Source: Arthrobacter sp. Soc17.1.1.1
GTDB taxonomy: Bacteria > Actinomycetota > Actinomycetes > Actinomycetales > Micrococcaceae
Length of the DNA: 48,026 nt
Direction: 5' to 3'
NCBI RefSeq assembly: GCF_036867195.1
Contig: NZ_JBAJII010000005.1
Location: forward strand, 1 to 48,026
Position numbers and translations under genes: made by a program. Below the pieces are notes generated by a model. The model was not told where the DNA came from and ran no database searches. It saw only the letters and a list, made by a program, of their open reading frames with translations. Numbering within the stretch: position 1 is the stretch's first letter; each line of letters starts with the position of its first letter. Shown piece after piece: positions 1,823 through 47,961 of the stretch.

Positions 1823-2094
1823 ACAAGGTCTCGACTCTCATCTCTGTCCCAGCCCAGGAGATCGCTCCCCTCCCCGTCGAAGTTCAGCGCGGCCTCGACA
1901 CAGTGCAGTTCTGGATTCAGACCATCGGCGGATCGATCGCTGTCATCGGTCTGATGCTTCTCGCGATGGGCCTGTTCTTCGCTCACAGGAACGGACAGGG
2001 CCCGGAGTTCATGGGCAAGGTCGGCTGGTGGGCTGTCGGCGCGATGATGCTGGGCCTGGCCGGGGTCATCGCCCCGATCTTTGTCGGAATCTAG
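1819..2094 (+). CDS. Small two-TM protein, VirB2/TrbC-like candidate pilin
   Basis: A 91-residue protein with two hydrophobic helices, roughly residues 33-53 (GSIAVIGLMLLAMGLFFAH) and 68-90 (WWAVGAMMLGLAGVIAPIFV), joined by a short charged loop. Size, topology and position before the bitopic and TrbL-like genes fit the VirB2/TrbC pilin slot of a type IV secretion operon. There is no clear cleavable signal peptide. The start overlaps the previous stop by 4 bp, preceded by AGAAGGAG. Function is inferred from topology and context. Confidence 0.65.
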   Translation: MNKVSTLISVPAQEIAPLPVEVQRGLDTVQFWIQTIGGSIAVIGLMLLAMGLFFAHRNGQGPEFMGKVGWWAVGAMMLGLAGVIAPIFVGI

Positions 2095-2113
2095 AGCGGA
2101 GAGCGACGATCCT

Positions 2114-9159: not shown

Positions 9160-9605
9160 CCGTTCAGGAGTTCGGGGCTTTCGATGATGTAAGCACGGTT
9201 CCCGAACCCGTGAGCGGAGAAGCGACAGGCACCGCGGCCGCTGACGCGGCTCCACAGCTGGTGTACGGATCCGCGGAGGAGTTCCTGCACGAGCAGCTGC
9301 TACCCACTTTCACCCGCAGCACGCGAGGCAAGCAGTTGCGCTGGTGTAGCCGGTGGTTCCTGCACCCCGAGGCGATCTCCCGCATCACAGCGTTGTGGCG
9401 TGCCTGGGAGACACTGCGCCTCGAGGCGGGCACCGGCATCAGTGACTGGTGGTTGCATCATGCGGATCCGCACATGCGGGTCCTACTGGATCCGGAAGGA
9501 CCGTTCTTCAACTGCGGAGACGGACACTCCACCCCGAAGACACTCGAAGCCGAGATCGCCCCAACCGGCTGGTTCCCAGACGAACGCGACGACCCGGCTA
9601 CCTAA
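9156..9605 (+). CDS. DUF4913 domain protein, last gene of transfer operon
   Basis: A 149-residue protein with an ATGA overlap with the coupling ATPase. The C-terminal half (FLHEQLLPTFTR, LRWCSRWFLHPEAISRI, LWRAWE, DWWLHHADPHMRVLLD, then a GPFFNC motif) matches the Trp-rich DUF4913 family of actinobacterial plasmids and integrative elements. Biochemical role is unknown. Its place after VirD4 suggests an accessory transfer role. Transcription ends at the hairpin at 9612-9664. Confidence 0.85.
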   Translation: MTVQEFGAFDDVSTVPEPVSGEATGTAAADAAPQLVYGSAEEFLHEQLLPTFTRSTRGKQLRWCSRWFLHPEAISRITALWRAWETLRLEAGTGISDWWLHHADPHMRVLLDPEGPFFNCGDGHSTPKTLEAEIAPTGWFPDERDDPAT

Positions 9606-13905: not shown

Positions 13906-16900
13906 TCAGCGCTCCACACCGTCGTCCCGGTCCTTCCGCTCGGGAGCGGGGGGCTGCTTCGGGCTCTGCTGATCCCCAGGGTTCCGTGGCGGCTGTGCAG
14001 AGGTGTTCCGTCCCTGCTGCGGGAACTGCTCGCGCATCCGCCGGCGGTGGGCTAGCAGTTCCGGGTCGATAGTCGGCTGAGGATTCTCCTCGCCGTTCAT
14101 CGTCCGTGTGATCCGCTCGACATCCCACTTTGCCGCATCAAGAGTCTCCGCATACTTGAACGGCTGGCGCAACGCTGTTGCAGCGTCGCGGTACTCCTGG
14201 CGGGCTTCTTCGATTTTCTGTTCGAGTCGCGCTACCTCGTCGGGGAGCCGCTTTACCTGGTTCTCAAGGCGCTGGATCACGCCCACCGTGGGGAACAATG
14301 CATCGGTCCGTTTCAGCTCGACGGCAACACCTGGTGCGCCGTCGATTTGCAGTTCCACGCGTGACGATCCGAGGTCGACCATCTTGGCCTCTCCCTGCAC
14401 AAACCGGATGTCGTGACCACCAAGGGACGCCATGACTCCGAGATCCCTGGAACCGTGGATTGGAGGGCGACCGGAGGCGTTCCGGTCCGCCCACGTCCGC
14501 AGCGCGTCGACCGCATCAGCTCGCTTGCCGTAGGAGCGTCCGTCGACCGTCATCCGGAAGTCATCGCCACCCACCTCGGGCGACGTGCGAGCTGCAGCGG
14601 CCTTCAACGCCGGGAGGATAGCGACCATTGACTCGCCGTGTTTCTGGGCGCTGTCCTTCCGATAGGTGAGCGCGGCACGGTTGCGTTGGAACGAGGTTTC
14701 CAGCCGCGTGAGGCGAGATAGCTCTTGATCGGCTTTCGACTTTTCCAGGATCAGAGGGTTGCCACTAGAAATCGCTTTGACTTCCGCAAAGGAGAGAGTG
14801 TTGTCGCCAACATCCTCGATCTCGCGGACGTCGAGTCGGCCGCGCATGATCTGGTCGATGAACTTGCTCTTCCGCTCCAAGGTCTGCCACATGAAGGTGT
14901 CGAAGGAGCCCTTGGTGACGACCTGGGAAATACCGACTTCGGGGTTCTGATTGTGCTGCCGTACGACGCGTCCGTGACGTTGGGACACATCAGCTGGGCG
15001 CCATGGAGCGTCGAGGTCGACCAGGTGCACGGCGCGGTCTTGGATGTTCGTGCCGACGCCCATCTTCTGCGTCGACCCGATGAGGACAGCGACGTCGCCG
15101 CTCCTGCAGGCCGCGAACAGCCGGCCTTTCTCTGCGTCGTTCTTGGCCTCGTGCATGAACCGAATCTTGTCTGCCGGCACTCCTCGGTCCATGAGGTCCT
15201 GGGCCAGCTGGTCGTACACATTCCACTTGTCCGACGGTGTGCCGAGGTCGCAGAACACCAGCTGCAAGGCGCCCGGTGTCGGGTGCGGCTCGCCCGTCGC
15301 CGGGTCTGTGTAGATGCGGTTCTTATTCTCCTCGTACACGGTCGTCAGCAGGTCAGCGGTGGCACTGATCTTCGTGGCCCCGATTAGAGCGTCCAGCTGG
15401 GGGTCGACGAGGCGCATGTCGAGGGCGGCTTTCCGTCCGTCACTGGAGATCTTCAGCATGTTGTCTTCGGTTGCGGGAACCAAGCGTGCCTGGATCTTCT
15501 CGGCGCGCTCTGCAATGTCCGCGATGTACGCCTCGAGCTCGATGGATGGTTCGACGGTGATCATGCGCGGCAGGCGGCGGCCGTCCTCGCGTTCCTCGAT
15601 GAGGGGCACCGGTAGCTGGAGGTCCTCGGCCGTTTTCACGTCCGCGAACGTGTGGAACATCTTCAGCAGCTCGGGGACGTTCTGGAACTTCGCGAACCGT
15701 TCCTTCATCTTGAAACTGTCGCCGCCGGCAACGGTCATCTCCATCTCGGAGACCACCTGACCGAACGTCGCAGCCCACGTGTCGAAGTCGTTGATGCCGG
15801 CCTTTTCCAGCAGGTCCGGGCGCAGGTAGCGCTGCATCACATACATCTCGGTCACGCTGTTGGCGATCGGCGTCGCCGTGGCGCCAGTCATCACCCGGTC
15901 GCCGTGCGTGTCGCGCAGGTACTCCACCTTCGCGTGAAGGTCTGAGGCGCGCTTAGAGCCATCGATCGCGGCGTCCCGAATGTTCGACGTGGTCTCGAGG
16001 TTCTTGAAGTCGTGCAGCTCGTCCACGATCAGGTAGTCGATGCCCGTCTGCTCGAACGTGATCCCCGGGTCCTCCGGGTGATCGAGGAGACGTTTGACCA
16101 TCTCCTCATCGGACTGCAGGCGGCTCTCCATCTTCTTCACACTGAGCCGTGCACCTCCGTCTTCCGCCCGTTCTTGCGCAGCGAGAAGCTCGGCGCGTTT
16201 CCGATCCCCTTCCTTGGTCAGGTACGCGGCTTTCGACTCCGCCGACAGTGGGATCCGCTCGAAAGCGGTGCGGGTCATGATGATCGCGTCCCAGTCGTTC
16301 GCGGCCGCGCGGGCCACAAACTGCCGGCGCTTGTCGCCGGTGAGGTCGGCTGAGGACGCGGCAAGGATCTGCGCCTGCGGGTAGATCTGCAACCACTCCC
16401 GAGCGAACTGATCCAGCATGTGATTCGGGACGACGATGGCAGGTTTTCGCGCCATACCGAGGCGTCGTAGTTCCATCGCGCCCATCACCATCTCGCCGGT
16501 CTTACCCGCACCGACCTCGTGGAACAGCCCAACGGACGGCTCAGAAATCATCCGCGCTACAGCGGCCCGCTGGTGTGGTCGAGGGTTCCAGTTCTTCACG
16601 AGCCCGGGCAGCGTCAACCGGTCGCCCTCGACCGTATAGTCGCGCAGCACGAGCGAGTTGAACCGGCGGTTGTACTCGTCCGTCAGAGCTACCGCACGCT
16701 CGGGGTCTTCCCATACCCACTCACCGAACCGATCCTGCATCAGCTGGGCTTTTTCCTGCGCCGCGGTCGTCTCGGTCGGATTGACGATCCTCCGCGTTTC
16801 GGGGTGGTCCGGGTCGGGGTCGGTGACCTGCACGCGCTTTTGCTCGAGCACGTTCTTGAAAATCTCACCGGCCGGCATCCGCACGGTACCCCAGTCGCTG

Positions 16901-19540: not shown

Positions 19541-19559
19541 CACTGAAATAGTTTCAGTG
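19541..19559. promoter_or_regulatory. Palindromic operator, copy 1, methyltransferase-helicase promoter
   Basis: CACTGAAA-TAG-TTTCAGTG, 8-bp arms, 47 bp before the helicase-gene start. On the minus strand a TACCGT -10-like box (19530-19535) follows six bases later, so a bound protein would cover the -35 area. The same palindrome occurs at 43041 and twice at 45770-45801. Confidence 0.75.
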
Positions 19560-20629: not shown

Positions 20630-20685
20630 ATTCCAAGATTCCAAGATTCCAAGATTCCAAGATTCCAAGATTCCAAGATTCCAAG
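20630..20685 (+). repeat. Seven perfect tandem copies of ATTCCAAG
   Basis: Seven uninterrupted copies of the 8-bp unit, followed by a partial ATT. It is adjacent to an AT-rich inverted repeat. It may be an iteron-like protein-binding array or a slippage-prone microsatellite. Frames through it give a repeating 8-residue peptide with no other support for coding. Confidence 0.9.
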
Positions 20686-20699
20686 ATTGATGATCTTAC

Positions 20700-24833: not shown

Positions 24834-25649
24834 TCAACTGCTTGTCTGGCTGAGGCTGTGGGCGAGGCGGTAGGAATCGGTGCCGGTTTCGATGATGGCC
24901 CCGTTGAAGGTGAGCCGGTCGACGATCGCGGCGCAGAGGCGCGGGTCGGTGAAGGTTCTTGTCCACCCGGAGAAGGACTCGTTGGACGCGATCGCGATGG
25001 AGTTCTTCTCTTCGCGTTCGGTGAGGACCTGGAACAGGAGTTCGGCGCCGCGGCGGTCGAGTTCCATATAGCCGAGTTCGTCGATCATGAGCAGATCCAC
25101 CCGCCCATAGCGGGCGATGGTCTTCGCGAGCATTTTCTCGTCGGCGGCTTCGACGAGTTCGTTCACGAGCCGGGTGGCCAGCGTGTATTTCACCCGGTAC
25201 CCTTTCTCCGCCGCCGCGGTCCCGAGTCCGATGAGGAGATGAGATTTCCCGGTCCCGGAGTCCCCGATGAGGCAGAGGGGCTGGCCTTTGCGGATCCACT
25301 CCCCGGTCGCCAGGGTATGGATCGTGGCGGGGTTGATGTTGGGGTTCGCGTCGAAGTCGAAGTCCCCGAGCCACTTGTCCCTGGGGAAGTTCGCGGCTTT
25401 CACCCGCCGGCTCGAGGAGCGGCGGTCCCGGTCGTCGCACTCAGCCAACAACAACTCGGCCAGGAACCCCTGGTAGGAGAGCTGTTCCTTCCCTGCGACG
25501 GTCAGGGCCTCATCAAGGACAGCGCGGATCGTAGGGAGTCGTAGGCGGCGGCACGCCTGATCAACGGCCGCCACCGCGGCCTGCTCGGTCAGACCACGCC
25601 TGCGCCGCAGCGTAGGAGTCACCGTGGTGGTCGAGGTGGTGGGGCTCAT
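24834..25649 (-). CDS. istB: IS21 helper ATPase IstB
   Basis: A 271-residue AAA+ ATPase with CLIGDSGTGKSHLLIGLG as Walker A and VDLLMIDELGYMELD as Walker B, plus the IstB C-terminal SNESFSGWTRTF segment. It assembles on target DNA and activates the IstA transposase. The start overlaps the istA stop by 4 bp. Intact length and motifs. Confidence 0.95.
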   Translation of the reverse strand: MSPTTSTTTVTPTLRRRRGLTEQAAVAAVDQACRRLRLPTIRAVLDEALTVAGKEQLSYQGFLAELLLAECDDRDRRSSSRRVKAANFPRDKWLGDFDFDANPNINPATIHTLATGEWIRKGQPLCLIGDSGTGKSHLLIGLGTAAAEKGYRVKYTLATRLVNELVEAADEKMLAKTIARYGRVDLLMIDELGYMELDRRGAELLFQVLTEREEKNSIAIASNESFSGWTRTFTDPRLCAAIVDRLTFNGAIIETGTDSYRLAHSLSQTSS

Positions 25650-27421
25650 GAGATGTTCTCCTTCGACATGCTGACAGACGAGCTGCTCGGGACGTTGTTC
25701 GGGTTGCTTGCGGGCGCGTTTGCTGGGTTCACTGGGGAGCGTTTGGCGAGCAGCTCGTCGTACGCGCTGACGGACGGAATCGGCCGGCTGTCGGGTGGGA
25801 GACCGGCGATGACAGCGGCCGGGTCCATGAGGCGGCGCTGGGTGAGACTGACAACCCGCTGCACGTGTTCCTCGACTCGAGCACCACGATGCCCGTCGGA
25901 ATGACGGCCCGAACTGGACCCACCAACCGCTGCCAGATCCTCCGCTCTCAGGTCCTGGTTGCTGGTCAGGTTCTCGGTTACGTGTCGGCGGGCTTCGACC
26001 GCGACGACGTCGGCGCTGACCGCACCCACCGTGAGGGCTGCGCTGATTCCGGCTTCGATGTCCTGGGGGTGCATGAACCGGTGCAGGAGTAAGACATCGA
26101 TGAGTTCCCGGGTCCCATCGGTGTCGCCGTTGACCCGTCGGGACGCAGCCCAGAACGCTTCATGGGCGTTCGTGAACGAACCAGCCTCCCTGGCCCTGGC
26201 CAAAGCAGTGGAGCCGGGAAAGGCTCCGGGCTTGGTTTTCAGGACCTCAAGGTAATGATCGAGCTGCACCGACTGCCCATGCTTGATCGTGATCCGCTGA
26301 TGCCTGGCCGCGATCGTGCGCCCATCGAAGACAACTACCTCGGACGCCCGCAGGGAGACCCGGACCTTCCGGCCGATGAACCGTGCCGGTACCGAGTACT
26401 TCATCATCCGGACGGTGATCATCGAGGACCGGTCCACCCTCGGCGTCAACGCCAACCCGGGATCGAATGCCTCCGCCGGTAAGGGCGCGAGGCGTGGCTG
26501 ATCGGTGTCGAAGTCCTGCCCGACGGTGCGGATCCTGTCGCTGATCCGCCGATTGTCGTCCTCTTCCTCCCAGACCCGGATGCGATCGTTGAGTTCATCC
26601 AGGGACGCGACGACAGGCATCGGGGAAAGCCTGTTGCGGCGGAACCTGCCCACCTCACCCTCGACTCCGCCTTTCTCGTGGGCGCCGGTGATACCGGGCT
26701 GACAGTAGAACGCGTCGAAGCCATAGTGAGAGCGAAACAGCACCCACCGGTCGTTCTCGACCCGCTGCCTACCTTGGCCGAACACCACCGACGTGACCGC
26801 AGCAGTGAGGTTGTCGTACCGGATGTGCTTGGTCGGAACCCCACCCAAAGCGGTGAACGCCTCGATGTGTCCTTCGAGGAACGCCTCCTGCGCCTGCGTC
26901 GGATACACCCGGTGAACGGCTTTCCCGGAGTAGGAAAGCCGGTAGACGAACATGTGACACTTCGTTCTCACCCCGTCCAAGACAACCCAGACCTCACCGA
27001 AGTCCACCTCGGCCTCCGCACCCGGAACATGCTCCTGAGGGACGAACACCTCGACCCGCCGGCCGGCCTCCACGTCGATCTCCGCACGGCGGACCCGCAC
27101 GTAATCCCGCACCGTGGAATATGACAACTCCGTGGCCCCGTGCTCCTCAACCAGCCGGGCAAGAACCCGACGGGCGGTATGACGTTGCTTCCGCGGCGCG
27201 GCCGTGTCCTCGATGAGCATCACATCAATTGCCGGCTTGAACGCCTCCAACTTCATCGATATCCGAACCGGTGTTTTCCGCTCCGGCGGCTTCGCCGACT
27301 CCAGCGCTGCTCGGACCGTTCGACGATGAACGCCATACCGAGCGGCCAGCCCGCGAATAGAGAGGCCCTCCACTCGGGCGTCCCTACGGATTGCTGCGAA
27401 TACCTCCACGCGTGCTCTCAT
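25646..27421 (-). CDS. istA: IS21-family transposase IstA
   Basis: A 591-residue DDE transposase, start at ATG 27421 (MRARVEVFAAIRR). A longer frame begins at 27460. It has an N-terminal HTH (LSIRGLAARYGVHRRTVRAAL) and an rve-type catalytic core with EAEVDFGEVWVVLDG, HIRYDNLTAAV and HEKGGVEGEVGRFRR supplying the DDE residues. The basic, Ser/Asn-rich tail is unusual in composition. It appears full length. Confidence 0.93.
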   Translation of the reverse strand: MRARVEVFAAIRRDARVEGLSIRGLAARYGVHRRTVRAALESAKPPERKTPVRISMKLEAFKPAIDVMLIEDTAAPRKQRHTARRVLARLVEEHGATELSYSTVRDYVRVRRAEIDVEAGRRVEVFVPQEHVPGAEAEVDFGEVWVVLDGVRTKCHMFVYRLSYSGKAVHRVYPTQAQEAFLEGHIEAFTALGGVPTKHIRYDNLTAAVTSVVFGQGRQRVENDRWVLFRSHYGFDAFYCQPGITGAHEKGGVEGEVGRFRRNRLSPMPVVASLDELNDRIRVWEEEDDNRRISDRIRTVGQDFDTDQPRLAPLPAEAFDPGLALTPRVDRSSMITVRMMKYSVPARFIGRKVRVSLRASEVVVFDGRTIAARHQRITIKHGQSVQLDHYLEVLKTKPGAFPGSTALARAREAGSFTNAHEAFWAASRRVNGDTDGTRELIDVLLLHRFMHPQDIEAGISAALTVGAVSADVVAVEARRHVTENLTSNQDLRAEDLAAVGGSSSGRHSDGHRGARVEEHVQRVVSLTQRRLMDPAAVIAGLPPDSRPIPSVSAYDELLAKRSPVNPANAPASNPNNVPSSSSVSMSKENIS

Positions 27422-27553
27422 TCTTGACCTCCACCACTGGAACCAGATCGATGATTCCAACGCTGAGGTGGGGCCACTTCAAACCGTCACAAGAAGCCCC
27501 GCGAGTCGCTAGATGGGTCCAAAACGAACCGCCACAGTGGGGCCACTTGAACC

Positions 27554-28100: not shown

Positions 28101-28808
28101 ATGATCAATGAAGAGGCGCCCATTCCTGCTGACGTTTTCGCGAACATCCCGACCTCACCGAAGGTTTTCGAGCATGTCGCTCCCGCCAATGGCGCGCGCT
28201 GGCGACGTGAACTCTCGGCGCGATCCTTACCTCCCGTAGGCGGGAAGCTAGCAACCACGGATCTCACGACAATCAGTCGTCAGGAGATTTTTGATCTCGG
28301 TGATGCACCCATCACGGTCGACAACGCGTTCCAGCTGCTCTACTACTCCCTGGCGTGGGGGCTCGGAACGAAGGCACCCTACCTTCACAAACGGCTAGAT
28401 CACCTTGCTGAACAACGGGAGGTAGCCGGCGAACTGCTGGTGTCAGCATGGACGCTCGTCCGGGACGGAGCCTCGCCACAGGAGGCGTACAGCTGCCTGA
28501 CGAACGGGTACGGCAAAGGTCGAATCGGGTGGTACGGCCCTGCCTTCTCCACCAAGTTCCTCTACTTCGCGCAGGGCAATGTTGAATTACCGCGCCTGCT
28601 CATTCTCGATCAGGTGGTTTCTGAGAACCTGCGCCGCGATGTGTGGCCAACGGCCCCAACTGGGGAGTGGTGGCCCGATACCTATGAGCGGTACTGCAAC
28701 CTCTTCGTGCAGTGGGCGGTTCAGGCGACCGAACAACTTGGGCGGGTGCCGAGTGTCCGAGCAGACGAACTCGAGCTCATTGTTTTCAAGCGCCACCTTG
28801 CCGCCTGA
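28101..28808 (+). CDS. 8-oxoguanine DNA glycosylase OGG-fold protein
   Basis: A 235-residue protein. TAAGGT (28089-28094) lies six bases before ATG, suggesting a leaderless transcript. The hallmark is the helical segment GRIGWYGPAFSTKFLYFAQG followed by PRLLILDQVV, as in small OGG-fold proteins with an HhH-like core and a catalytic-type Asp. Excision of an unusual base is possible, but a Lys nucleophile cannot be assigned by eye. The gene lies just before the restriction-modification pair and may be part of the same defence cluster. Confidence 0.7.
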   Translation: MINEEAPIPADVFANIPTSPKVFEHVAPANGARWRRELSARSLPPVGGKLATTDLTTISRQEIFDLGDAPITVDNAFQLLYYSLAWGLGTKAPYLHKRLDHLAEQREVAGELLVSAWTLVRDGASPQEAYSCLTNGYGKGRIGWYGPAFSTKFLYFAQGNVELPRLLILDQVVSENLRRDVWPTAPTGEWWPDTYERYCNLFVQWAVQATEQLGRVPSVRADELELIVFKRHLAA

Positions 28809-28821
28809 CCCTGACCCGAAC

Positions 28822-28850
28822 TGGTGCCGATAGCATGAGCTTTGGCACCA
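28822..28850. promoter_or_regulatory. Inverted repeat at methyltransferase start
   Basis: TGGTGCC (28822-28828) and GGCACCA (28844-28850) bracket TAGCAT and ATG 28835. This may be an operator for autoregulation of the restriction-modification genes, or an RNA hairpin that masks the start. Confidence 0.4.
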
Positions 28851-30007
28851 TTCGCCGGTCTCATCTTGGAATAGAGGAAGCATTGTCAGCGCGCACGCCG
28901 TCACGGAGGACACCACCACGCCCGGTCGAACACCGTGCCGATACCCGTCATCCCACCGGAGCCTTCACATTCCACAGCGGCAACTCGCTGGAAGCGTACG
29001 CACACTGGGAAGCTCCCGACACCATCGTCTCTGACGGCGCCTACGGTGTGCGAGGATTCCGTGGCGACACCGTGGACGCCAGCGGACTCGACGCGTGGTA
29101 CCGGCCACACGTTCAAGCGTGGAGTAAGCACGTCAAACCGTCCACCAGCCTCTGGTTCTGGAACACCGAGGTCGGATGGGCGACCGTTCACCCACTACTG
29201 CTCGCTCATGGCTGGGAGTACGTGGAACTCATCACCTGGGATAAAGGCCTCTCGCACATCGCAGGCAACGTGAACGGGCTAACGATCCGACAAATGCCCG
29301 TAGTTACTGAGGTCTCCGCTCTGTACCGCAGGCGCCTCGAACTCCCCGCAGCCGATGGCCGCACGCTACCGGTAAAGGAATGGCTGAGGACGGAATGGCT
29401 TCGCTCGGGCCTACCTCTGAACCGCTCCAACGAAGCCTGCGGCGTTAAAAATGCCGCAACCAGGAAGTACCTCACTCAGGACTGGCTCTGGTACTGGCCG
29501 CCCGGCTCCATGGTGGAACTGATGGCCAAATACGCACGCACGAACGGGCAGATCACATCCCGTCCTTACTTCTCCCTCGATGGTGAAACGCCGGTCACCG
29601 CGATGGCCTGGGATGAACTTCGAGCTACATGGAACCACGCGCACGGACTCACCAACGTGTGGCAGCGACCTCCGCTGCATGACTCCGAACGGCTTAAAGG
29701 CGCCATGGAACGATCCGCCCCACGAACCTACAAACCGACCCGCGCCAGCGCCACACACCTCAACCAGAAACCACTGGAGTTCATGGTGCGCCAGGTCGAA
29801 GCAACAACCCGCCCAAACGACGTCGTGTGGGAACCATTTGGCGGCCTTGCGTCCGCCTCTGTCGCAGCAGTCAGCACGGGCCGACGTGCTTTCGCCGCCG
29901 AAGTTGACGTCGCCTTTCAAGGACTAGCCTGCGAAAGACTGAACGAAGCAGCAGACCTCTTCGAGGCAGCTCGTGACGGCCACGCGGAGCAGGTGCGTGT
30001 CTCATGA
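28835..30007 (+). CDS. Type II DNA methyltransferase
   Basis: A 390-residue amino-methyltransferase of the permuted (beta-like) class. The catalytic motif comes first (TIVSDGAYGVRGFRGD, a DPPY variant reading SDGAYG), and the AdoMet-binding motif near the C-terminus (VVWEPFGGLASASVAAV). HLNQKPLEFMVRQVEA is the usual pre-motif helix. The start is uncertain: ATG 28835 lacks a ribosome site, while TTG 28883 follows AGAGGAAG. It protects DNA against the nuclease encoded next, with a 4-bp overlap. Confidence 0.82.
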   Translation: MSFGTIRRSHLGIEEALSARTPSRRTPPRPVEHRADTRHPTGAFTFHSGNSLEAYAHWEAPDTIVSDGAYGVRGFRGDTVDASGLDAWYRPHVQAWSKHVKPSTSLWFWNTEVGWATVHPLLLAHGWEYVELITWDKGLSHIAGNVNGLTIRQMPVVTEVSALYRRRLELPAADGRTLPVKEWLRTEWLRSGLPLNRSNEACGVKNAATRKYLTQDWLWYWPPGSMVELMAKYARTNGQITSRPYFSLDGETPVTAMAWDELRATWNHAHGLTNVWQRPPLHDSERLKGAMERSAPRTYKPTRASATHLNQKPLEFMVRQVEATTRPNDVVWEPFGGLASASVAAVSTGRRAFAAEVDVAFQGLACERLNEAADLFEAARDGHAEQVRVS

Positions 30008-30987
30008 CAGATCCGGATGAGCCGACTGATCTCTCCCCGATGGACGACACGGCTTCTAGCTCCCCCGCCGGATCGCCCGCAGGAGACCCCGCGCCGACCA
30101 GGTACGAACTGGACCCGGCTGACAGACGGACGAAACTCCGCGAAAACGTCATCGAGGCAATCAATGCCCTACCGTTCCACTTCGCGAGCCCGATCAACAT
30201 CGAAGGCCTCGACGCAGGCGATCTTTTCCAGCTCAACACTCTTCTCGGCGGCGCGATCGAGGTGCAAACGGTTGACACCCTCAACCGCATCAGATCTGTC
30301 TGGGACCCTGACGACGAGTGGCAGGACTATGGCTTCAAACGGTTCTCGCAGAGCTTCCCAGACGTCCGTCTTGTAAGGGGGGACAACACCCAACAACCCA
30401 TCCTCGGCATTGAGCTCAAGGGCTGGTATCTCCTCAGCAAGGAAGCGGAGCCATCTTTCAGGTACCAAGCAACGGCCGAAGCTTCAAGCGTCTGGGATCT
30501 CCTCGTGTGTGTTCCGTGGACCCTCAGCAACGTGCTCAGCGGCAGCCCAAGAATCCTCGAACCATATGTTGAACAGGCTAAGTACGCCGCCGACATGCGG
30601 ACCTACTACTGGAAGCACCTCCGAGCGGGCGACGCCGGCTCACGGAACAGTGACATCCACGTTCCGCAGGGCGTCACACCATACGCTCCCGCAGGAACAT
30701 CGACATCTGACAAGCCGGCCCAAGATGGCGGCGGTAACTTCGGACGAGTCGCCCGCATTAGAGGTTTGATGTCTAGCTGGATATCAGGGCTCGTGAACAG
30801 TCCTGTGTCCGGAATCCCAGCCAAATATTGGATCGATTTTCTCAAAGCTTTTTCGGAGTCCAACGATCAGGAACAACTTCGCCGGAAAATTACTGCACTC
30901 GTGAGACGGGCAGATACCAGCGCCGAAGAAGCCAAGGCAGAACGCGTGTACGAGCTCCTGTCGGAGCTCCGCCAAACACTGAACTAG
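30004..30987 (+). CDS. Type II restriction endonuclease (PD-(D/E)xK)
   Basis: A 327-residue protein overlapping the methyltransferase by ATGA. Residues 1-35 are acidic and disordered. The catalytic core is visible as FPDVRLV followed by PILGIELKGWYLLSKE, which fits PD-x(n)-ExK with strands of the right length. No close family is recognised and the recognition sequence is unknown. Gene order (methyltransferase then overlapping nuclease) supports a restriction partner. Confidence 0.78.
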   Translation: MTDPDEPTDLSPMDDTASSSPAGSPAGDPAPTRYELDPADRRTKLRENVIEAINALPFHFASPINIEGLDAGDLFQLNTLLGGAIEVQTVDTLNRIRSVWDPDDEWQDYGFKRFSQSFPDVRLVRGDNTQQPILGIELKGWYLLSKEAEPSFRYQATAEASSVWDLLVCVPWTLSNVLSGSPRILEPYVEQAKYAADMRTYYWKHLRAGDAGSRNSDIHVPQGVTPYAPAGTSTSDKPAQDGGGNFGRVARIRGLMSSWISGLVNSPVSGIPAKYWIDFLKAFSESNDQEQLRRKITALVRRADTSAEEAKAERVYELLSELRQTLN

Positions 30988-38299: not shown

Positions 38300-38501
38300 G
38301 GTAATGATGGTATTGATCGCGTCACCGGTGTGACCCTTTGTCCACGTGACGTGGCCTCGGCTGCTGTCCAGCACACGACTTGTCCGCCGGTGCGCGATCG
38401 CTTCACACGGAGCGGGTATGACCTCATAGGAGCTTGACTACGTCCCCTCACCGTATTGTCTGCTCGTCCAACGTGTGATGCCCAACCTCAGGAAGGTACG
38501 C
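38300..38501 (+). ncRNA. IS110 left non-coding end, possible bridge RNA region
   Basis: About 200 bp between the repeat break and the transposase start. In the IS110 group this segment encodes a bridge RNA that pairs with target and donor DNA. Length and position fit, but I could not fold it or identify the loops. Confidence 0.35.
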
Positions 38502-39770
38502 ATGTCAGATCAGGAACAACACCAGGTCTTCGTCGGCATCGACACCCACGCAGACACTCACCACGTCGCCATTATCACCGACTACGGGAAACCTCTCACG
38601 GATCAGGAGTTCTCGGCCACCAGCACGGGCTATCGCGCCATCGTCGAGTTCATCACCGCTCACGGCGACGTCGGGGGAGTGGGCATCGAAGGAACTGGTA
38701 CCTACGGGGCGGAATTGACCAGGATCCTCCGTCAAGCCGGGATCTCCGTCACTGAAGTGAATAGACCCAATCGTCAGCAACGCCGATTACACGGGAAGTC
38801 AGACCCACTTGATGCGTACCAGGCCGCTCGGTCAGTGCTCGCGGGGACGAGTACCGCCGTTCCAAAAGCCAAGGACGGACCCGTGGAGTGCTTACGTGTG
38901 CTGCGGGCTGGCAGGGCCTCGGCGCTCAAAGCGCGAACCGCGACGATCAACCAGATCCGCGACATCCTCGTCTCAGCCACCGATGAGATCAGAGCGAAGT
39001 ACCGGGGCATACCAACAGTGCCCATGATCACGACGATGGCGAGATCCCGCCCGGCCGGTCACCTCGCTGACCCCGACTACGTCACTGCCCGAGTGCTCAA
39101 GACCCTCGCTTTGCGGTACCAGCTCCTCACCATCGAGATCGACGCCGCGACAGAGTCGCTGCAGGAGATCCTCGACTCCTACGCACCACTGCTCTGTGAT
39201 CTGCCAGGGGTCGGCACCGACGTCGCGTCGCAACTGCTCGTCACCGTGGGCGATAACAAACAGCGCATCAACAACGAGGCCCAGTTCGCGGCACTCGCCG
39301 GCGTCGCCCCGGTCCCGGCATCGTCCGGTAAATCAACCCGTCACCGGTTAAGCCGTGGCGGAGATCGCCACGCAAACAGTGCGCTCCACCACATCGTCCT
39401 AGTCAGGATGGGCACCGATTCCCGGACGAAGGACTACGTCGACAAGCGAACAGCTGAGGGAAGGAGCAAACGAGAGATCATGCGGTGCCTGAAACGCTAC
39501 GTCGCCCGCGAGGTCTACCGTCAGATCACGAATCCCGTCCCAGCGCCGACGTTCACCGACATACGGCCGCTACGGCATGAGCTCGGCATGACGCTGCAAC
39601 ATGCGGCCGAACACCTTCACCAATGGCCTTCGTACCTGTCGCGCCTCGAGCGCGGACGCACGAGAAACGATGCGTTGCTCAGCCAGTACCGGCAGCTCCT
39701 TGAGGACCACGGTCCGTCAGCAGCTCGTTGCACGGCCGATTCTCGTTCGCTGCTACGCTGCGAACCGTGA
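38502..39770 (+). CDS. IS110-family transposase with C-terminal XRE-like HTH
   Basis: A 422-residue recombinase, start ATG 38502 behind GGAAGG. The N-terminal RuvC-like DEDD domain opens with VFVGIDTHADTHHVAI and has GIEGTGTYGAELTRIL and KSDPLDAYQAAR. The C-terminal Tnp domain has LPGVGTDVASQLLVTVGD and ASSGKSTRHRLSRGGDRHAN, with the reactive Ser region. After the usual end (KRYVAREVYRQI) an extra 70 residues read LRHELGMTLQHAAEHLHQW, then LSRLERGRTRND, an XRE-type helix-turn-helix. Confidence 0.9.
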   Translation: MSDQEQHQVFVGIDTHADTHHVAIITDYGKPLTDQEFSATSTGYRAIVEFITAHGDVGGVGIEGTGTYGAELTRILRQAGISVTEVNRPNRQQRRLHGKSDPLDAYQAARSVLAGTSTAVPKAKDGPVECLRVLRAGRASALKARTATINQIRDILVSATDEIRAKYRGIPTVPMITTMARSRPAGHLADPDYVTARVLKTLALRYQLLTIEIDAATESLQEILDSYAPLLCDLPGVGTDVASQLLVTVGDNKQRINNEAQFAALAGVAPVPASSGKSTRHRLSRGGDRHANSALHHIVLVRMGTDSRTKDYVDKRTAEGRSKREIMRCLKRYVAREVYRQITNPVPAPTFTDIRPLRHELGMTLQHAAEHLHQWPSYLSRLERGRTRNDALLSQYRQLLEDHGPSAARCTADSRSLLRCEP

Positions 39771-43040: not shown

Positions 43041-43057
43041 ACTGAAATTTTTTCAGT
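43041..43057. promoter_or_regulatory. Palindromic operator, copy 2, ImmA/IrrE operon
   Basis: ACTGAAA-TTT-TTTCAGT, followed immediately by a TACCGT -10-like box (43056-43061), 75 bp before the start at 43132. Same motif as 19541 and 45770. Confidence 0.75.
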
Positions 43058-43131
43058 ACCGTTGGGGAACGGACTGCAGCGCCCTGTCCTCGGCGGGCCA
43101 CACGACACGTCGAGAACGACAGGAGAAGCAA

Positions 43132-43608
43132 GTGGAGCGATCTGGGGCAGCCCTGTCAGCGTTCGCAACGCTCGAACTTCCTTCGCGGCCGCAGCTAGGC
43201 GACCTATTGGTCGCCGTTGAGAAACGCTATGGGAAGCCTTTGACGCTTCGTGAGGTGCCGGCGGGGTCACTCGGACACAACATCACAGGTCAGTGGACGG
43301 ACTTCGTGACCCACGGCCTTATCGAATACGCAGCGGGCCGACGGGTATGGCAGCTTCACGTAATTCTTCACGAGCTGGGGCACATCGTGCTCGATCACAA
43401 GAGCCACAAGAGCCACCCCATGGCCGAATCTGGCTTTTTTCGTGGAATCGGCAGCCGAAAAGGTGTGAGTTGGATGTTCCGCCAGGTCGACGGACCCACG
43501 AACCACATCGAGTGTGCAGCGGAGGACCTTGCGTTCGTTTTCGCTGATGCGATGTTCGGCTCCACGCAGGGCAACTTAACTGCTGCCGAGCGGATCTTCG
43601 GCTTGTGA
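43132..43608 (+). CDS. ImmA/IrrE-family metallopeptidase
   Basis: A 158-residue protein from GTG 43132 behind AGGAGAAG. The zinc motif is LHVILHELGHIVLDH (HExxH form HELGH), with ECAAEDLAFVFADAM supplying the third ligand region. Family members such as ImmA cleave XRE repressors. A cognate HTH protein lies at 45286. The frame overlaps the next gene by 4 bp (GTGA), so it is first in a cassette with two membrane proteins. Confidence 0.88.
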   Translation: MERSGAALSAFATLELPSRPQLGDLLVAVEKRYGKPLTLREVPAGSLGHNITGQWTDFVTHGLIEYAAGRRVWQLHVILHELGHIVLDHKSHKSHPMAESGFFRGIGSRKGVSWMFRQVDGPTNHIECAAEDLAFVFADAMFGSTQGNLTAAERIFGL

Positions 43609-44594
43609 TCGAGGTTGCCTTCTGGCTGCTCGCAGTAGCGTTTGTCTCCCGTCTTACGTTCGTGATCCGGTTCGGCTCGTCGACGGCGTTCCTCGCGGCC
43701 ATGGGAATCGGGCTCATCGGACTCTTCAGCACCGGCGTCCTGGTTCCCGAGCCGATACTCGACGGACTACTCGGCGGTCACAATGTCCTGCACCTGCTGC
43801 GGAACCTCGCAGTCACCTACGCTGTGTGGCTCATCCGCGACGGAGTGGTGCATGCGTTCGGTGGCGAAGCCGACCGCAGCAGGTTCATCTACCGTCGTTC
43901 ATTCTTGCTTCTTGTCACGGCCGCAATTGTCATTCCCTTCCTGTTCCAACACTTCGTGCCCACCACCGAGCGATTCGTTCCAGAAAACGTCGACCAGCCG
44001 GCAGTTCTGATCTACGCGACGGTATACATGGCTGCACTGGGTTTCCTTGCAGCCTCGGTCGTGAAAACCTGCTTGGCACCTCAGTCGAGTCGAGCCGTCA
44101 GAGTAAGCGCGCGCGGCGTTGCCGTCGGGATGGCGTTCATGGCTGTCGCCTGCATCGACGAAATCGTGTACATGCAGCTGCAGGCTCTGGACGCCGGACC
44201 GGCAGGACTTAGAGCCGTTCTCTACGGTGCCTTCTCCCCGTTGCTCTACGGCGGTGTGCTGATCGTTTCACTCAGCCTCGCCCTGCCCCTGCTCATACGT
44301 GTTGTTCGCACGTTCGATCTGGTCAACCGGCTCACGCTGCTTGTGCTGGAGGTCTCGCCCGCAACTATCAACGACTCCACCAAGGTTCAAAGCTCGTTGC
44401 AGAGGATGAGAGCCGCCTGGTTACACGCCGATCCATCAAGCGCCGTGTACGAACACATCATCCGCGAGAGTGATCGCCGTGTCACCGAGGAACACCGTTC
44501 ATTGCCCGCTCTGACCGCAAGGGCCCTTGCAGCAGCGGAAGACCGGTTCGACAGGTCCTTCGATATGACAGTGAAAGAAAAGGAAATCTTATGA
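43605..44594 (+). CDS. MAB_1171c-like polytopic membrane protein
   Basis: A 329-residue protein with about seven TMs in the first 235 residues (starting VAFWLLAVAFVSRLTFVI; then FLAAMGIGLIGLFSTGVLV, NLAVTYAVWLI, FLLLVTAAIVIPFLF, VYMAALGFLAASVV, GVAVGMAFMAVACI and PLLYGGVLIVSLSLALPLLI). A cytoplasmic helical tail follows. This topology and its pairing with an ImmA/IrrE peptidase match the MAB_1171c family of actinobacteria, usually annotated as transporter or sensor without proof. It overlaps both neighbours by 4 bp. Confidence 0.75.
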   Translation: MIEVAFWLLAVAFVSRLTFVIRFGSSTAFLAAMGIGLIGLFSTGVLVPEPILDGLLGGHNVLHLLRNLAVTYAVWLIRDGVVHAFGGEADRSRFIYRRSFLLLVTAAIVIPFLFQHFVPTTERFVPENVDQPAVLIYATVYMAALGFLAASVVKTCLAPQSSRAVRVSARGVAVGMAFMAVACIDEIVYMQLQALDAGPAGLRAVLYGAFSPLLYGGVLIVSLSLALPLLIRVVRTFDLVNRLTLLVLEVSPATINDSTKVQSSLQRMRAAWLHADPSSAVYEHIIRESDRRVTEEHRSLPALTARALAAAEDRFDRSFDMTVKEKEIL

Positions 44595-45208
44595 GCACTC
44601 AGACCATCAGTGACGAAGTGAGGACGTCCCCGGTGGGCCGCATTGCGCGGACTGCAACTGAGATAGCCCAGCCGCCACTGGTGTTGTCAGTGCTTCTAGT
44701 GTTGGCATCAATTCTTCAGAACCCGGTGCTGCCGTTCGTAATGACCGGCATCATCGCCGCACTGACGATCTGCTTGGTGCCTTTCGCCGTCGTGGTAGTC
44801 ATGGCGCGTCGTGGGCGACTGACCGACCACCACGTAGGGGACAAGCGGCAGCGCCGCGGAGTCATGCTGTGGACCCTGGGATCAGCGCTCGTTGGCGCCG
44901 GCTTACTCACACTCATGGACACCCCACGACCCCTTTGGGGCTTGATTGGTGGCATTTTCGCCGGGATCGTGACGCTGATCGTCATCAGCCCTGTCTGGAA
45001 GGTTTCAGGGCACGCGATGACACTCGGCGGTGCCACGGTCACCTCGTTGCTGATGTTCGGATGGGCAGGGCTGCCAGTACTTATAGCCGCCCCGCTCGTC
45101 TGCTGGTCTAGGGTGTATCTGAAAGATCACTCAGCGGCACAAGTGATCGTCGGCTTTCTCGTCGGTGCTGTTGCATTCGGCATCTCCTATACGCTGATTG
45201 CCGCTTAG
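44591..45208 (+). CDS. PAP2-superfamily-like membrane protein
   Basis: A 205-residue protein with about six TMs. It carries weakened acid-phosphatase motifs: MDTPRPL, KVSGHAMTLGG (SGH) and CWSRVYLKDHSAAQVIVGF (SR-x5-H). The usual Asp after the last His is Gln here and the first motif is incomplete, so catalysis is doubtful. It would act on lipid phosphates if active. It is coupled to the MAB_1171c-like gene. Confidence 0.65.
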   Translation: MSTQTISDEVRTSPVGRIARTATEIAQPPLVLSVLLVLASILQNPVLPFVMTGIIAALTICLVPFAVVVVMARRGRLTDHHVGDKRQRRGVMLWTLGSALVGAGLLTLMDTPRPLWGLIGGIFAGIVTLIVISPVWKVSGHAMTLGGATVTSLLMFGWAGLPVLIAAPLVCWSRVYLKDHSAAQVIVGFLVGAVAFGISYTLIAA

Positions 45209-45285
45209 CTCTAGCATCCACCAGCCTAAGGAGCGTCCACAGCCGTCCCTGTGGCCACTCTTGCATTCCAGTTCTTGCACATTCC

Positions 45286-45753
45286 ATGAGTCGAAATGAG
45301 GTCACCTTGGGCGACGATAATGAGCCGGTTGATCCTCGAACCGACAAGGAAGTTGTCGCTTCGAAGCTGAGACTCTTACTCGACATCGTGCACGAGAAAG
45401 ACGCTGACAGCTTCACCTACGAGGACATCCGCAGAGGCCTCGAAGACCAAGGCTTTACCCTCACCAAAACTCGGTGGCACCGCCTACTTGCAGGATCCGC
45501 AGACAACAGGTGGGACCCACCCCTGTTGAAGGCACTTGCCTATTTCTTCGACGTCGATGAGAACTTCCTGCTGCAGCGCTCAGGCCCCATCCCTGAGCGC
45601 GTGGAAGCGGAGCTGAGGCTCATCGAGGCCTACCGCATATCCGAGGTTGAGCACTACGCCGCCAGGGCGCTAGGCGAGGTCAACATCGACGCCCTGCGAG
45701 CAGTCACTCAAGCCCTCCGCAACCTGCCTCGACGTCCCTCTCAGGAGAACTAG
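45286..45753 (+). CDS. EspR-like helix-turn-helix regulator
   Basis: A 155-residue protein. After an acidic N-terminus comes an XRE-type domain with YEDIRRGLEDQGFTLTKTRWHRLLAG, a wHTH-like turn, and DPPLLKALAYFFDVDENFLLQ, the pattern of EspR and related actinobacterial regulators. The C-terminal helices (AEHRLIEAY-like, AARALGEVNIDALRAV) probably dimerise. It is a strong candidate for the protein that binds the ACTGAAA-N3-TTTCAGT sites and for the target of the ImmA/IrrE peptidase. Two sites lie 17-48 bp after its stop. Confidence 0.75.
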   Translation: MSRNEVTLGDDNEPVDPRTDKEVVASKLRLLLDIVHEKDADSFTYEDIRRGLEDQGFTLTKTRWHRLLAGSADNRWDPPLLKALAYFFDVDENFLLQRSGPIPERVEAELRLIEAYRISEVEHYAARALGEVNIDALRAVTQALRNLPRRPSQEN

Positions 45754-45769
45754 AGATGAACACCCGGAT

Positions 45770-45801
45770 CTGAAAATATTTCAGACTGAAATATTTTCAG
45801 T
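45770..45801. promoter_or_regulatory. Tandem palindromic operators, copies 3 and 4
   Basis: CTGAAA-ATA-TTTCAG (45770-45784) and ACTGAAA-TAT-TTTCAGT (45785-45801) are side by side, centres 16 bp apart. TATGCT (45810-45815) follows, seven bases before ATG 45822, a leaderless-type layout. Confidence 0.8.
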
Positions 45802-45821
45802 TTTGGGTCTATGCTGGGCGC

Positions 45822-46028
45822 ATGAGTTCAGCCGTCCGCTCTGCTGCACTGCGCGCCGGCTTCCGCCTAAATGGTGTGGGTGTCGCCTCGAGCGTTGACG
45901 TATGCGGCGATGAGCGACAAGAGCTTGTCAGCTCGGCGCGCATCCAGGGCGTAGGTAAGAGCTCTCGTCGATCGCTCGCCGGCGGGAAGGTTCGCAGTAA
46001 CGACCCCCGTCAGTTCGAGCTTTCCTAG
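45822..46028 (+). pseudogene. Truncated ORF behind the tandem operator
   Basis: It opens MSSAVRSAALRAGFRLNGVG then loses protein-like character and runs antisense into the winged-helix gene at 45867. An intact operator and -10 in front of a short start suggest the 5' remnant of a gene cut off when the transfer region was joined here. Confidence 0.35.
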
Positions 46029-46217
46029 GCTTTGAGTCAGCACGCTCGCGTTGATGTTCGTCGCCTCTTGGATCTGGTACCGCATCGACGGACCGCTAAT
46101 CCTCAAGTGGCGGATGATCTGCATCCTGACGGCGGTGCCATACGCAACGATGGCGGCATCCAGGTCCTGCGACCACATGGGGTCTTCGGGGCGGACGTGG
46201 CGGGGCATGCGTTCCAT
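45867..46217 (-). CDS. Winged-helix transcriptional regulator of transfer operon
   Basis: A 116-residue protein with an ArsR/MarR-like DNA-binding core: AYGTAVRMQIIRHLRISGPSMRYQIQEATN, recognition helix ASVLTQSLGKLELTGVV and wing. GGAAGG precedes the ATG. It is divergent from the M23 peptidase gene that opens the transfer operon, so probably a repressor of conjugation and of itself. Confidence 0.82.
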   Translation of the reverse strand: MERMPRHVRPEDPMWSQDLDAAIVAYGTAVRMQIIRHLRISGPSMRYQIQEATNINASVLTQSLGKLELTGVVTANLPAGERSTRALTYALDARRADKLLSLIAAYVNARGDTHTI

Positions 46218-46253: not shown

Positions 46254-46307
46254 CCCAACTTAGCACTTTAAGTGTGCAGTTGGGTTGTTTATGTGTAAGA
46301 GTTGGGT
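46254..46307. promoter_or_regulatory. Transfer operon operator with three half-sites
   Basis: CCCAACT (46254-46260) and AGTTGGG (46278-46284) form an inverted pair that encloses CACTT-T-AAGTG (46264-46274). A third AGTTGGGT lies at 46300-46307, 22 bp (two helical turns) after the second. It is located between the repressor and the first transfer gene. Confidence 0.65.
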
Positions 46308-46333: not shown

Positions 46334-47425
46334 GTGCAAGACACAAAGGGCGGGGAACTGATTGCGGTCGTGGCCGCCATCTGCCTCGTTCCACTGATGA
46401 TCGTGATCATCGCGGTCGTCGGCATGACCGGCGCGCCAGCGGCCAGCGGTCTCTGTGCAGCACCCGGAGTTGCCGGTGACGCAAGCACGGTCGAGGGATC
46501 GGTTGCCGGTTTCTCGGGTGTCCAGCTGCAAAACGCTGCAGAGATCATGGGTGTGGCAACCGACCTGAAGCTCCCGGTGTCCGCCCAGATTCTCGGTGTT
46601 CAGACAGCGATCGGTGAGTCCACACTCGAGGTAAAGACTTACGGGGATGCCGCCGGGCCAGACTCTCGAGGACTGTTCCAGCAGCGTGATAACGGGGCGT
46701 GGGGTTCTCTCGAAGACCGCATGAATCCGCGCGTGAGCGCCACGAACTTCTTCAAGCAGCTGATGAAGGTGGAGGGATGGGAAGCGCTCGAGCCGAGCAC
46801 GGCGATCCACCGGGTTCAGCGCAACGACAACCCAAATCACTACACGCAGTTCCGCGGGCCGGCCACTGAGGTCGTCAAGGCTCTTGCCGGCGGCGACATC
46901 GAAGGGATCGACTCCACCGGAGCGTGCCCTGCAGCCAGTAACGCGGTCATTGGGGAGCTGTCGGGCAAGTGGGTGAACCCTCTGCCCGGATCGACGGTGA
47001 CCAGCGGATACGGTCCCCGTGGAGCACCCGCTGGGACCGCCGGCGGCGTCCTGGCTAATTTCCACTACGGGCTCGACCTGTCCAGCACCACAGCCGCTTC
47101 CGGCGGCACGGTGGTGGCGGCCACGGATATGAAAATCACCATCGCCCGGGAGAACGACGGACAGTTCGGTACCCGCGTCAACGGAACCACTCTCGACGGC
47201 AAACTCACGATCGGCCACTACCACCTCGCTGCCGGCAGCTTGAAGGTCAAGGTCGGGGATACCGTCGCCGCCGGCACGCCCCTAGGCACCGAAGGTGGCA
47301 CCGGCAACGTCAGCGGCACCCACCTTCACCTTGAGTTCTTCACAGGAACCCCGGCCGAACCTTCGATCCCGACCAACCCGACCGTCGATCCCGAACCGAT
47401 CCTTCGTAGCAAGGGAGCACTCTGA
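46334..47425 (+). CDS. M23 peptidase with N-terminal lytic-type domain, first transfer gene
   Basis: A 363-residue protein from GTG 46334 behind GGGGGAGC. It has an N-terminal TM (ELIAVVAAICLVPLMIVIIAVVG), then a helical lytic-transglycosylase-like stretch (AQILGVQTAIGESTLEVKTYG, SRGLFQQRDNGAWGS), and a C-terminal LytM/M23 domain with zinc motifs FHYGLDLSS (H, D), GHYHLAAG and THLHLEFF (HxH). It locally opens peptidoglycan for the secretion channel (VirB1-like role). Two wall-cleaving domains in one protein fit Gram-positive conjugation systems. Confidence 0.88.
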   Translation: MQDTKGGELIAVVAAICLVPLMIVIIAVVGMTGAPAASGLCAAPGVAGDASTVEGSVAGFSGVQLQNAAEIMGVATDLKLPVSAQILGVQTAIGESTLEVKTYGDAAGPDSRGLFQQRDNGAWGSLEDRMNPRVSATNFFKQLMKVEGWEALEPSTAIHRVQRNDNPNHYTQFRGPATEVVKALAGGDIEGIDSTGACPAASNAVIGELSGKWVNPLPGSTVTSGYGPRGAPAGTAGGVLANFHYGLDLSSTTAASGGTVVAATDMKITIARENDGQFGTRVNGTTLDGKLTIGHYHLAAGSLKVKVGDTVAAGTPLGTEGGTGNVSGTHLHLEFFTGTPAEPSIPTNPTVDPEPILRSKGAL

Positions 47426-47961
47426 TGCGAATTTCTATCGTCTTCACACGGACGGCCACCGTGGGACTGAGCGCGTTGCTCGTCAGCGGATGCGCTTTGT
47501 TCACGCCCGCCTCCAGCGTCGAAGATGAGGCTCGTTCGTCAACACCGACGTCGCATGAGACGCACCACAGTGGGGACGGCCATGCACACGACGAGTTTTA
47601 CGAGGGCGTCCCCGATGTCACCTGGTCGCCGTCGACGAACGCAGAGGTCGAGGCAGTCGCGGTAGAGGTCATGGATCTGTTCGCACGCCCTGAGGTACCC
47701 GAGCGTCGCTGGTACACGGACCTGCTGCCGCACCTGTCCGAGGAGTATGCGGAGGACGCCCAGTACATCGATCCAGCCAACGTGCGCGTGAACGAGATCC
47801 TGTCCGGTCCGTCTCTGGTTCGGGAGAAGGACAACCCTCTCACCGTGACGGCCGAGTTCTCCACAAACGCCGGTCCATGGTCGGTCCTGCTGCACAGGGT
47901 CGGGCAGGACGATCCATGGCTGGTCGAAGCCATCCAACCCACAGAACCAGCCAATCCGTGA
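47425..47961 (+). CDS. Transfer-associated lipoprotein
   Basis: A 178-residue lipoprotein with signal peptide and lipobox LLVSGC (Cys at about residue 23), then a His-rich spacer (SHETHHSGDGHAHDE). The folded domain ends in WSVLLHRVGQDDPWLVEAI, similar to NTF2-like transfer lipoproteins. It is translationally coupled to the M23 peptidase (TGATG). It likely anchors in the outer leaflet and supports channel assembly. The His cluster could bind metal, but that is a guess. Confidence 0.75.
   Translation: MRISIVFTRTATVGLSALLVSGCALFTPASSVEDEARSSTPTSHETHHSGDGHAHDEFYEGVPDVTWSPSTNAEVEAVAVEVMDLFARPEVPERRWYTDLLPHLSEEYAEDAQYIDPANVRVNEILSGPSLVREKDNPLTVTAEFSTNAGPWSVLLHRVGQDDPWLVEAIQPTEPANP

Follow-up and report, generated by a model that had tools for sequence, protein, structure and literature searches.

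Conjugation of the integrative and conjugative element (ICE) ICEBs1 of Bacillus subtilis is controlled by the helix-turn-helix (HTH) repressor ImmR, the metalloprotease ImmA and cell-cell signalling, cleavage leading to derepression, as described in the available part of PMC6540685. How large plasmids of soil actinobacteria time their transfer is undescribed as far as the literature was searched. Here we analyse a four-gene cassette on contig C5 of Arthrobacter sp. Soc17.1.1.1, which encodes an ImmA/IrrE-like peptidase, a seven-transmembrane (7TM) protein, a PAP2-like enzyme and an EspR-like HTH protein and lies directly upstream of a type IV secretion system (T4SS) operon. The window, i.e. 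the stretch analysed, is the whole of this contig (48,026 bases), one of five in a 4.23-Mb genome. With a probability of roughly 0.55 we read the cassette as a signal-gated conjugation switch, in which the 7TM protein is a receptor acting on the ImmA-like peptidase, the peptidase cuts the EspR-like repressor, and palindromic operators are thereby freed. C5 ends without overlap; because joining its ends gives one unbroken open reading frame of 433 amino acids that matches a gene of a relative (E-value 5e-123), the simplest reading of C5 is a complete circular plasmid. The cassette and its predicted operators are as follows.

43041 to 43057, no strand: operator 1, ACTGAAATTTTTTCAGT, exact palindrome upstream of the cassette
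43132 to 43608, plus strand: predicted ImmA/IrrE-like zinc peptidase, 158 amino acids, peptidase domain only
43605 to 44594, plus strand: 7TM protein, MAB_1171c-like, predicted receptor
44591 to 45208, plus strand: relative of PAP2 membrane lipid phosphatases, swappable enzyme slot (Pfam PAP2, E-value 6.5e-6)
45286 to 45753, plus strand: EspR-like HTH protein, likely repressor (profile match to EspR)
45769 to 45801, no strand: operator 2, tandem pair between the HTH gene and the T4SS operon
19542 to 19558, no strand: operator 3, ACTGAAATAGTTTCAGT, 47 bp before a helicase gene

The gene coordinates confirm what the initial annotation had stated, namely that the four genes are consecutive and that the first three overlap by 4 bp (GTGA, ATGA); the HTH gene starts 77 bp after the third. 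A pattern search of the window located ACTGAAA-N3-TTTCAGT exactly at 19542, 43041 and 45785. A further copy at 45769 (45769-45785) has two mismatches and an exact core, CTGAAA-N3-TTTCAG, and forms a tandem pair at 45770-45800 with the exact copy at 45785-45801, the core of this partner covering 45770-45784. Allowing up to three mismatches the window holds four matches, compared to a mean of 0.62 and a maximum of 3 in 100 shuffles. In the whole genome (4.2 Mb) three sites were found with at most one mismatch, all of them on C5, and a reversed-pattern control under the same conditions yielded no match. The palindrome thus occupies three places: before the cassette, doubled in the gap between cassette and T4SS operon, and before the gene of an 1862-amino-acid helicase. 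Operators before the first and after the last cassette gene had been noted initially and are both present; the site before the helicase had been overlooked, and the downstream site is better taken as an element in front of the T4SS operon than as the end of the cassette.

These sites recur in close relatives. The core of this palindrome class (class A, at most one mismatch) flanks all 16 close cassettes, the window's included, on the upstream and the downstream side; the set leaves out the same-contig duplicates L047-L051 and L115, the second copy on the Fe7 plasmid (L121) and L113 (L113 ends and L132 begins inside the cassette). In six annotated Arthrobacter and Pseudarthrobacter plasmids with the cassette the core is exact upstream in all six, and the downstream tandem pair, with a spacing of 17 and at most two mismatches, is likewise found in 6/6. 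Sites corresponding to operator 3 precede the helicase operons of L010, L011 and L014, and no helicase-operon palindrome was present in the fetched stretches of L009, L012 and L013. In 13 of the window's 15 close relatives the first T4SS gene comes next. Just before operator 1 the element ATAnTACACA is invariant in 8/8 aligned sequences and may be promoter sequence; a sigma-70 consensus scan returned nothing at this place.

A family scan with the HTH protein alone gave no HTH family match. A profile of 20 members, however, retrieved EspR (4ndw, E-value 1.1e-22), with profile positions 37-169 aligned to 20-148 of 4ndw. Among the 16 close cassettes the HTH proteins are 74-98% identical. Cassettes with distant HTH proteins have, at one or both places, the palindromes CTGAAAC-N3-GTTTCAG, CTGAAAC-N4-GTTTCAG, TGAACATGTTCA, GGAACATGTTCC, CTGGACATGTCCAG or TCACACATGTGTGA, and the half-site pairs with the residues that follow RW or KW in the likely recognition helix, a label taken from the sequence pattern and not from a solved complex: x-Arg goes with TGAAA, His-His with GGAAC, Ser-Leu with TCACAC, x-Tyr-Leu with TGAAC and x-Tyr-Met with TGGAC. 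Class A HTH proteins are on average equally similar to those of class G (42%) and class B (42%).

Operator classes B to G were defined by inspecting loci, so that only 16 loci fetched later constitute a subsequent test. Fifteen of them could be scored, and the expected palindrome class (at most one mismatch) was present in 11/15, or in 11/12 if the x-Tyr-Leu helices of L315, L317 and L322, counted as failures, are set aside; this set includes the near-duplicates L307/L312 and L309/L310, and the rule had been widened before scoring by accepting any residue before Arg or Tyr, Trp-Arg, Phe-Tyr and others being previously unseen. Two of the 11 fitting loci have the palindrome at both places and nine upstream only, and in shuffled flanks the expected class appeared in 1 of 420 trials. 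Two later loci have an off-class match downstream as well. Because the palindrome class covaries with the recognition helix across clades, the HTH protein is the predicted palindrome binder; the evidence that this role falls to the HTH protein of the cassette itself is computational but good.

The same data bear on an explanation that we regard as very improbable: either an ArsR-like protein or some host protein binds the palindromes, and the tandem copy downstream of the HTH gene serves as a terminator. The stretch 45770-45800 does score as a terminator-like hairpin with a T-rich tail, one of three such sites in the window as compared to 2.5 expected, and a gene for an ArsR-like protein adjoins the tandem copy. 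In six aligned relatives, however, what comes after the tandem pair is TAGACT or TAGGAT and not a T run. The covariation of palindrome and HTH protein also argues against a foreign binder, as does the observation that the window's ArsR-like protein is, judged by eye, far less like its counterparts than the HTH protein is, while the operator is unchanged; moreover, in L058, L061 and L065, where no ArsR-like gene is adjacent, a palindrome is still found at one of the places. Two plasmids of one strain, Arthrobacter FB24 (L010 and L309), carry different palindromes, in line with a palindrome that goes with the HTH protein and not with the host.

A search in other actinobacteria established that the order peptidase, 7TM protein, PAP2-like enzyme, HTH protein is conserved and recurs on actinobacterial plasmids, usually beside one T4SS operon family. 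With this conserved order and a palindrome that follows the HTH protein, part of the membrane-signal to peptidase to repressor switch envisaged in the initial annotation is supported; that the conjugation operon is the next transcription unit, that the helicase has a third site and that the enzyme slot is swappable goes beyond it. The 7TM protein matches 8 of 72,556 plasmid records, has no match in phage records and is found by sequence alone in 5/394 genomes of a class sample, the window's own included. The HTH protein matches 51 plasmid records and 83/295 genomes of the family, many of the family matches being paralogues; 24 loci fetched around HTH matches comprise 20 with and 4 without the 7TM gene. 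Of the 51 plasmid records 22 were examined by annotation, i.e. the six relatives and 16 chosen for diversity. All 16 diversity-picked plasmids encode peptidase, 7TM protein and HTH protein, accompanied by PAP2 in four, an alpha/beta-hydrolase in seven, an MpaB-type oxygenase in four (on the other strand in L315 and L317) and no recognised enzyme in one. Peptidase, 7TM and HTH proteins are thus constant, with alternating enzymes beside one T4SS family.

Linkage of the peptidase to the 7TM gene is tight. In Micrococcales loci holding the 7TM gene an adjacent peptidase gene (at most 500 bp away, same strand) is present in 27/27. Family NF042915 occurs in 34/396 genomes of a phylum sample, in 12 over its cut-off; 36 loci of this sample comprise 32 with a 7TM gene by profile and four without, and of the 32, 26 have a peptidase gene next to the 7TM gene and 19 an HTH gene of this profile within 3.5 kb. 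A search started from PAP2 gave 73 loci; cassette genes were present at 20 of them, and at the remaining 53 PAP2 stood alone in the flanking sequence that was fetched. Among ten neighbours scanned in or near the phylum-sample loci are an amidase, three FAD (flavin adenine dinucleotide) monooxygenase-like proteins, an MpaB-like oxygenase and two alpha/beta-hydrolases. Only some of the ten lie directly beside the 7TM gene and in the same orientation.

One genome can hold two cassettes of different type. The second plasmid-like contig of the window's genome, C4, has a cassette with an alpha/beta-hydrolase instead of PAP2 (G000:C4:6264-9335, L062); its upstream palindrome is GGAACATGTTCC, class E, and the same 12-mer occurs exactly once on the chromosome. 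The genome thus combines C5 (PAP2, class A) with C4 (hydrolase, class E), and in Arthrobacter FB24 plasmid 3 (PAP2, class A) is combined with plasmid 1 (MpaB, class F). Variant arrangements were also seen: pACHL01 (L321, 5515-9411) has one HTH gene followed by two peptidase-7TM pairs and then an MpaB-type oxygenase, the record of a Pseudarthrobacter sp. Fe7 plasmid has the cassette at two places (L115, L121), either a duplication or an assembly artefact, and G143:C19, a single 2-Mb contig, has four genes of the MAB_1171c family.

The peptidase matches Pfam PF06114 (Peptidase_M78) only with an E-value of 0.23 and 11.7 bits, under the cut-off of 22; in 8 of 28 members the E-value is at most 0.01. 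Its HExxH motif (H80, E81, H84) is present in 28/28, E127 further downstream in at least 90%, and the predicted structure has the fold of IrrE and CapP. On pLDW-10 (L013) the peptidase reading frame (8500-8889, 129 amino acids) is not annotated and is without the C-terminal part, the cassette being otherwise complete.

For the 7TM protein the match to NF042915 (MAB_1171c) has an E-value of 4.8e-8 and 32.4 bits, below the curated cut-off of 100 bits; nine of ten 7TM relatives match this family, the best with 81.8 bits. Its AlphaFold model (predicted local distance difference test score 85) has seven long helices and a C-terminal helical tail, and the best structural matches of this predicted structure are G-protein-coupled receptors (GPCRs) and rhodopsins, which is suggestive only of a GPCR-like fold. 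Conservation of at least 75% is observed at 21 positions, seven in outer loops (D53, L56, G57, G58, N60, F124, Q131), six in the C-terminal tail, eight in helices and none in inner loops, and the most conserved segment is the first outer loop.

The peptidase could instead respond to DNA damage in the manner of PprI or CapP, with the 7TM protein merely an anchor or restraint, which we consider unlikely. The shared fold would fit, as would the presence of umuD and Y-family polymerase genes close to the cassettes of L009 and L314, and class D palindromes resemble actinobacterial SOS boxes; the window's operator does not look like one. PprI itself senses damage via single-stranded DNA, according to the available part of PMC10904395. 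With only 158 amino acids, however, the peptidase has no added sensor domain and little room for one, which makes the 7TM neighbour, adjacent in 27/27 and most conserved in its first outer loop, the natural input.

The third cassette protein matches Pfam PAP2 (PF01569) with 26.4 bits, just under the cut-off of 27.2. The initial annotation had called its motifs damaged. The active-site motifs SGH and SR-x5-H (here SR-x5-H-x3-Q) are in fact intact, and the Gln in place of Asp is usual, being found in 20/20 cassette relatives and 52/53 standalone relatives (the remaining one is without a pattern match) as well as in glucose-6-phosphatase. What is indeed changed is KX6RP, the first motif of PAP2 phosphatases, which is replaced by DHHVGDKxxR in the window and close relatives.

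This bears on the proposal that the cassette is a toxin-antitoxin or anti-phage module, the 7TM or PAP2-like protein being a membrane toxin released on repressor cutting. CapP-CapH, a related pair, controls CBASS (cyclic-oligonucleotide-based anti-phage signalling system). Likewise, COG2856-Xre pairs are classed as toxin-antitoxin-like in the accessible portion of Makarova et al. 2009 (PMC2701414). The retained catalytic signature of PAP2 and the operators leading to conjugation genes argue against it, and a PADLOC search gave no match for 7TM, PAP2-like or HTH protein and only RmrA (E-value 0.0084) for the peptidase. We regard this proposal as quite improbable.

Returning to the conjugation switch, a signal, probably chemical, would reach the 7TM protein from outside by ligand binding and pass through its cytosolic tail, and the 7TM protein would activate the ImmA-like peptidase. 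The peptidase would in turn cleave the HTH protein, the putative repressor, leading to expression of cassette, T4SS and helicase. The varied enzyme slot suggests that the ligand is a small hydrophobic molecule or is derived from one, and the chemistry of PAP2, rubber-oxygenase-type and FAD monooxygenase enzymes is compatible with isoprenoid lipids. Least certain is the role of the enzyme, which may convert a membrane lipid, possibly an isoprenoid, into the ligand. If so, the signal would be specific to the enzyme type, each type defining its own, and different operators would insulate plasmids sharing one cell. As a tentative extension, GPCR-like receptors would read plasmid-specific signals, probably enzyme-tailored isoprenoids or lipids, regulated proteolysis would open conjugation, and swaps of enzyme, helix and operator would create plasmid 'mating types' with separate channels.

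The enzyme might act in the opposite direction within the same circuit. Enterococcal plasmids use pheromone shutdown, and here plasmid-bearing cells could destroy the ligand, clearing a lipid or ester made by plasmid-free neighbours, so that the receptor reports recipients. Three partner types are hydrolases (PAP2, alpha/beta-hydrolase, amidase), and the enzyme gene lies in the operon behind operator 1, from which negative feedback would result. The oxygenase partners (MpaB, FAD monooxygenase), however, fit tailoring equally well or better, and we consider ligand clearing somewhat doubtful.

Several observations limit the case for a signal-gated conjugation switch. The expected palindrome class was not found in four of the 15 later loci (L315, L316, L317, L322), and for many distant cassettes a second palindrome was not found. 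HTH paralogues exist outside cassettes, the peptidase of pLDW-10 is truncated, and the sampled loci are related by descent, so that the counts given here are not independent events.

The surroundings of the cassette, apart from the operators, contain the following features.

45867 to 46217, minus strand: ArsR-like winged-helix regulator between cassette and T4SS operon (NF033788, E-value 3.9e-4, under the cut-off)
46254 to 46284, no strand: inverted repeat CCCAACT...AGTTGGG upstream of the T4SS operon, separating the ArsR-like and M23 genes
46334 to 47425, plus strand: M23 peptidase, start of the T4SS operon (Peptidase_M23, E-value 9e-12)
47425 to 47961, plus strand: hypothetical protein of the T4SS operon
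47996 to 1271, plus strand, across the contig junction: ParA-like ATPase of the T4SS operon, matching the ParA-like gene of the relative
1 to 9605, plus strand: remainder of the T4SS operon, with a TraG/D coupling protein at 7423-9159 (TraG-D_C, E-value 5e-31)
10955 to 12613, minus strand: MobA/VirD2-type relaxase (Pfam Relaxase, E-value 1.3e-15)
13906 to 19494, minus strand: SNF2/DEAD-type helicase, 1862 amino acids (Helicase_C, E-value 1.5e-6; SNF2, 5e-5)

The gene run from 46334 over the junction to about 9605 is T4SS-like by order and homology, and its first genes match relative L013 in unchanged order. Cassette and operon are separated by the ArsR-like gene on the opposite strand, and a gene of this kind also lies near the cassette in 5/6 annotated relatives and 12/16 further plasmids. 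Transcription from operator 2 would run antisense through the window's ArsR-like gene into the T4SS operon and could silence this second regulator. The inverted repeat at 46254-46284, which may be an operator of the ArsR-like protein itself, perhaps adds another level of control. BrxHI and DrmD are weakly similar to the helicase, as are methyltransferases around its residues 250-400. Elsewhere in the window, 28712-30984 on the plus strand encodes a DNA methyltransferase (N6_N4_Mtase) next to a type II restriction enzyme-like protein, likely a restriction-modification pair, an AT-rich stretch at about 20632-20690 has a short head-to-tail array of about nine bases (ATTCCAAGA-like), possibly iterons, and transposases of IS110 type (38475-39770, plus strand) and Mu type (25646-27460, minus strand) are present.

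If the conjugation switch is real, an ImmA-type protease is under the control of a transmembrane receptor, and conjugation operons of one class are connected to interchangeable small-molecule chemistry; the uncharacterised MAB_1171c proteins would acquire a role and EspR-like regulators a binding-site rule. In searches of an open-access library, subscription papers and preprints being outside this scope, we recognised no description of the cassette, of a 7TM input, of the swappable enzyme, of an EspR-type repressor with a helix-to-operator rule or of the link to actinobacterial plasmids, and the sensing half has a considerable chance of being new as a category.

Compared with described systems, the cassette shares single parts with each. 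CapP-CapH has the same pairing of peptidase and repressor and answers DNA damage. Both CapP-CapH and PprI-DdrO differ from the cassette in controlling defence or DNA repair, and to our knowledge neither has a membrane receptor or an enzyme in its cassette. PprI-DdrO, as presented in the available part of PMC10904395, combines the same pairing with another output. COG2856-Xre pairs are likewise peptidase-HTH operons on mobile elements; they are proposed to be toxin-antitoxin-like, and the accessible portion of PMC2701414 mentions neither a 7TM partner nor an enzyme slot. The HTH protein is related to EspR by profile, but EspR is deposited as a nucleoid-associated ESX-1 regulator, whereas for the present protein we predict local regulation through a short palindromic operator. 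The 7TM protein is homologous to MAB_1171c (NF042915), which is annotated as a putative transporter, while the evidence given here suggests a receptor, the window's protein staying under the family cut-off; knockout of MAB_1171c in Mycobacterium abscessus reduced biofilm by about 50% in one study, as far as the available part of PMC8707978 reports. That no such system is described for plasmids, as initially annotated, needs qualifying, for protease-repressor control of conjugation has its ICE precedent in ICEBs1. According to the accessible part of PMC6540685, ICEBs1 resembles the present locus in its element-encoded HTH repressor and ImmA-type peptidase, here with predicted operators before conjugation genes. 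It differs in its input, RapI and the peptide PhrI, in place of which we propose a 7TM membrane protein (a family scan of the four cassette genes gave no Rap-type regulator or Phr peptide), and the cassette described here adds an enzyme, has an EspR-like HTH protein and resides on actinobacterial plasmids rather than on an ICE.

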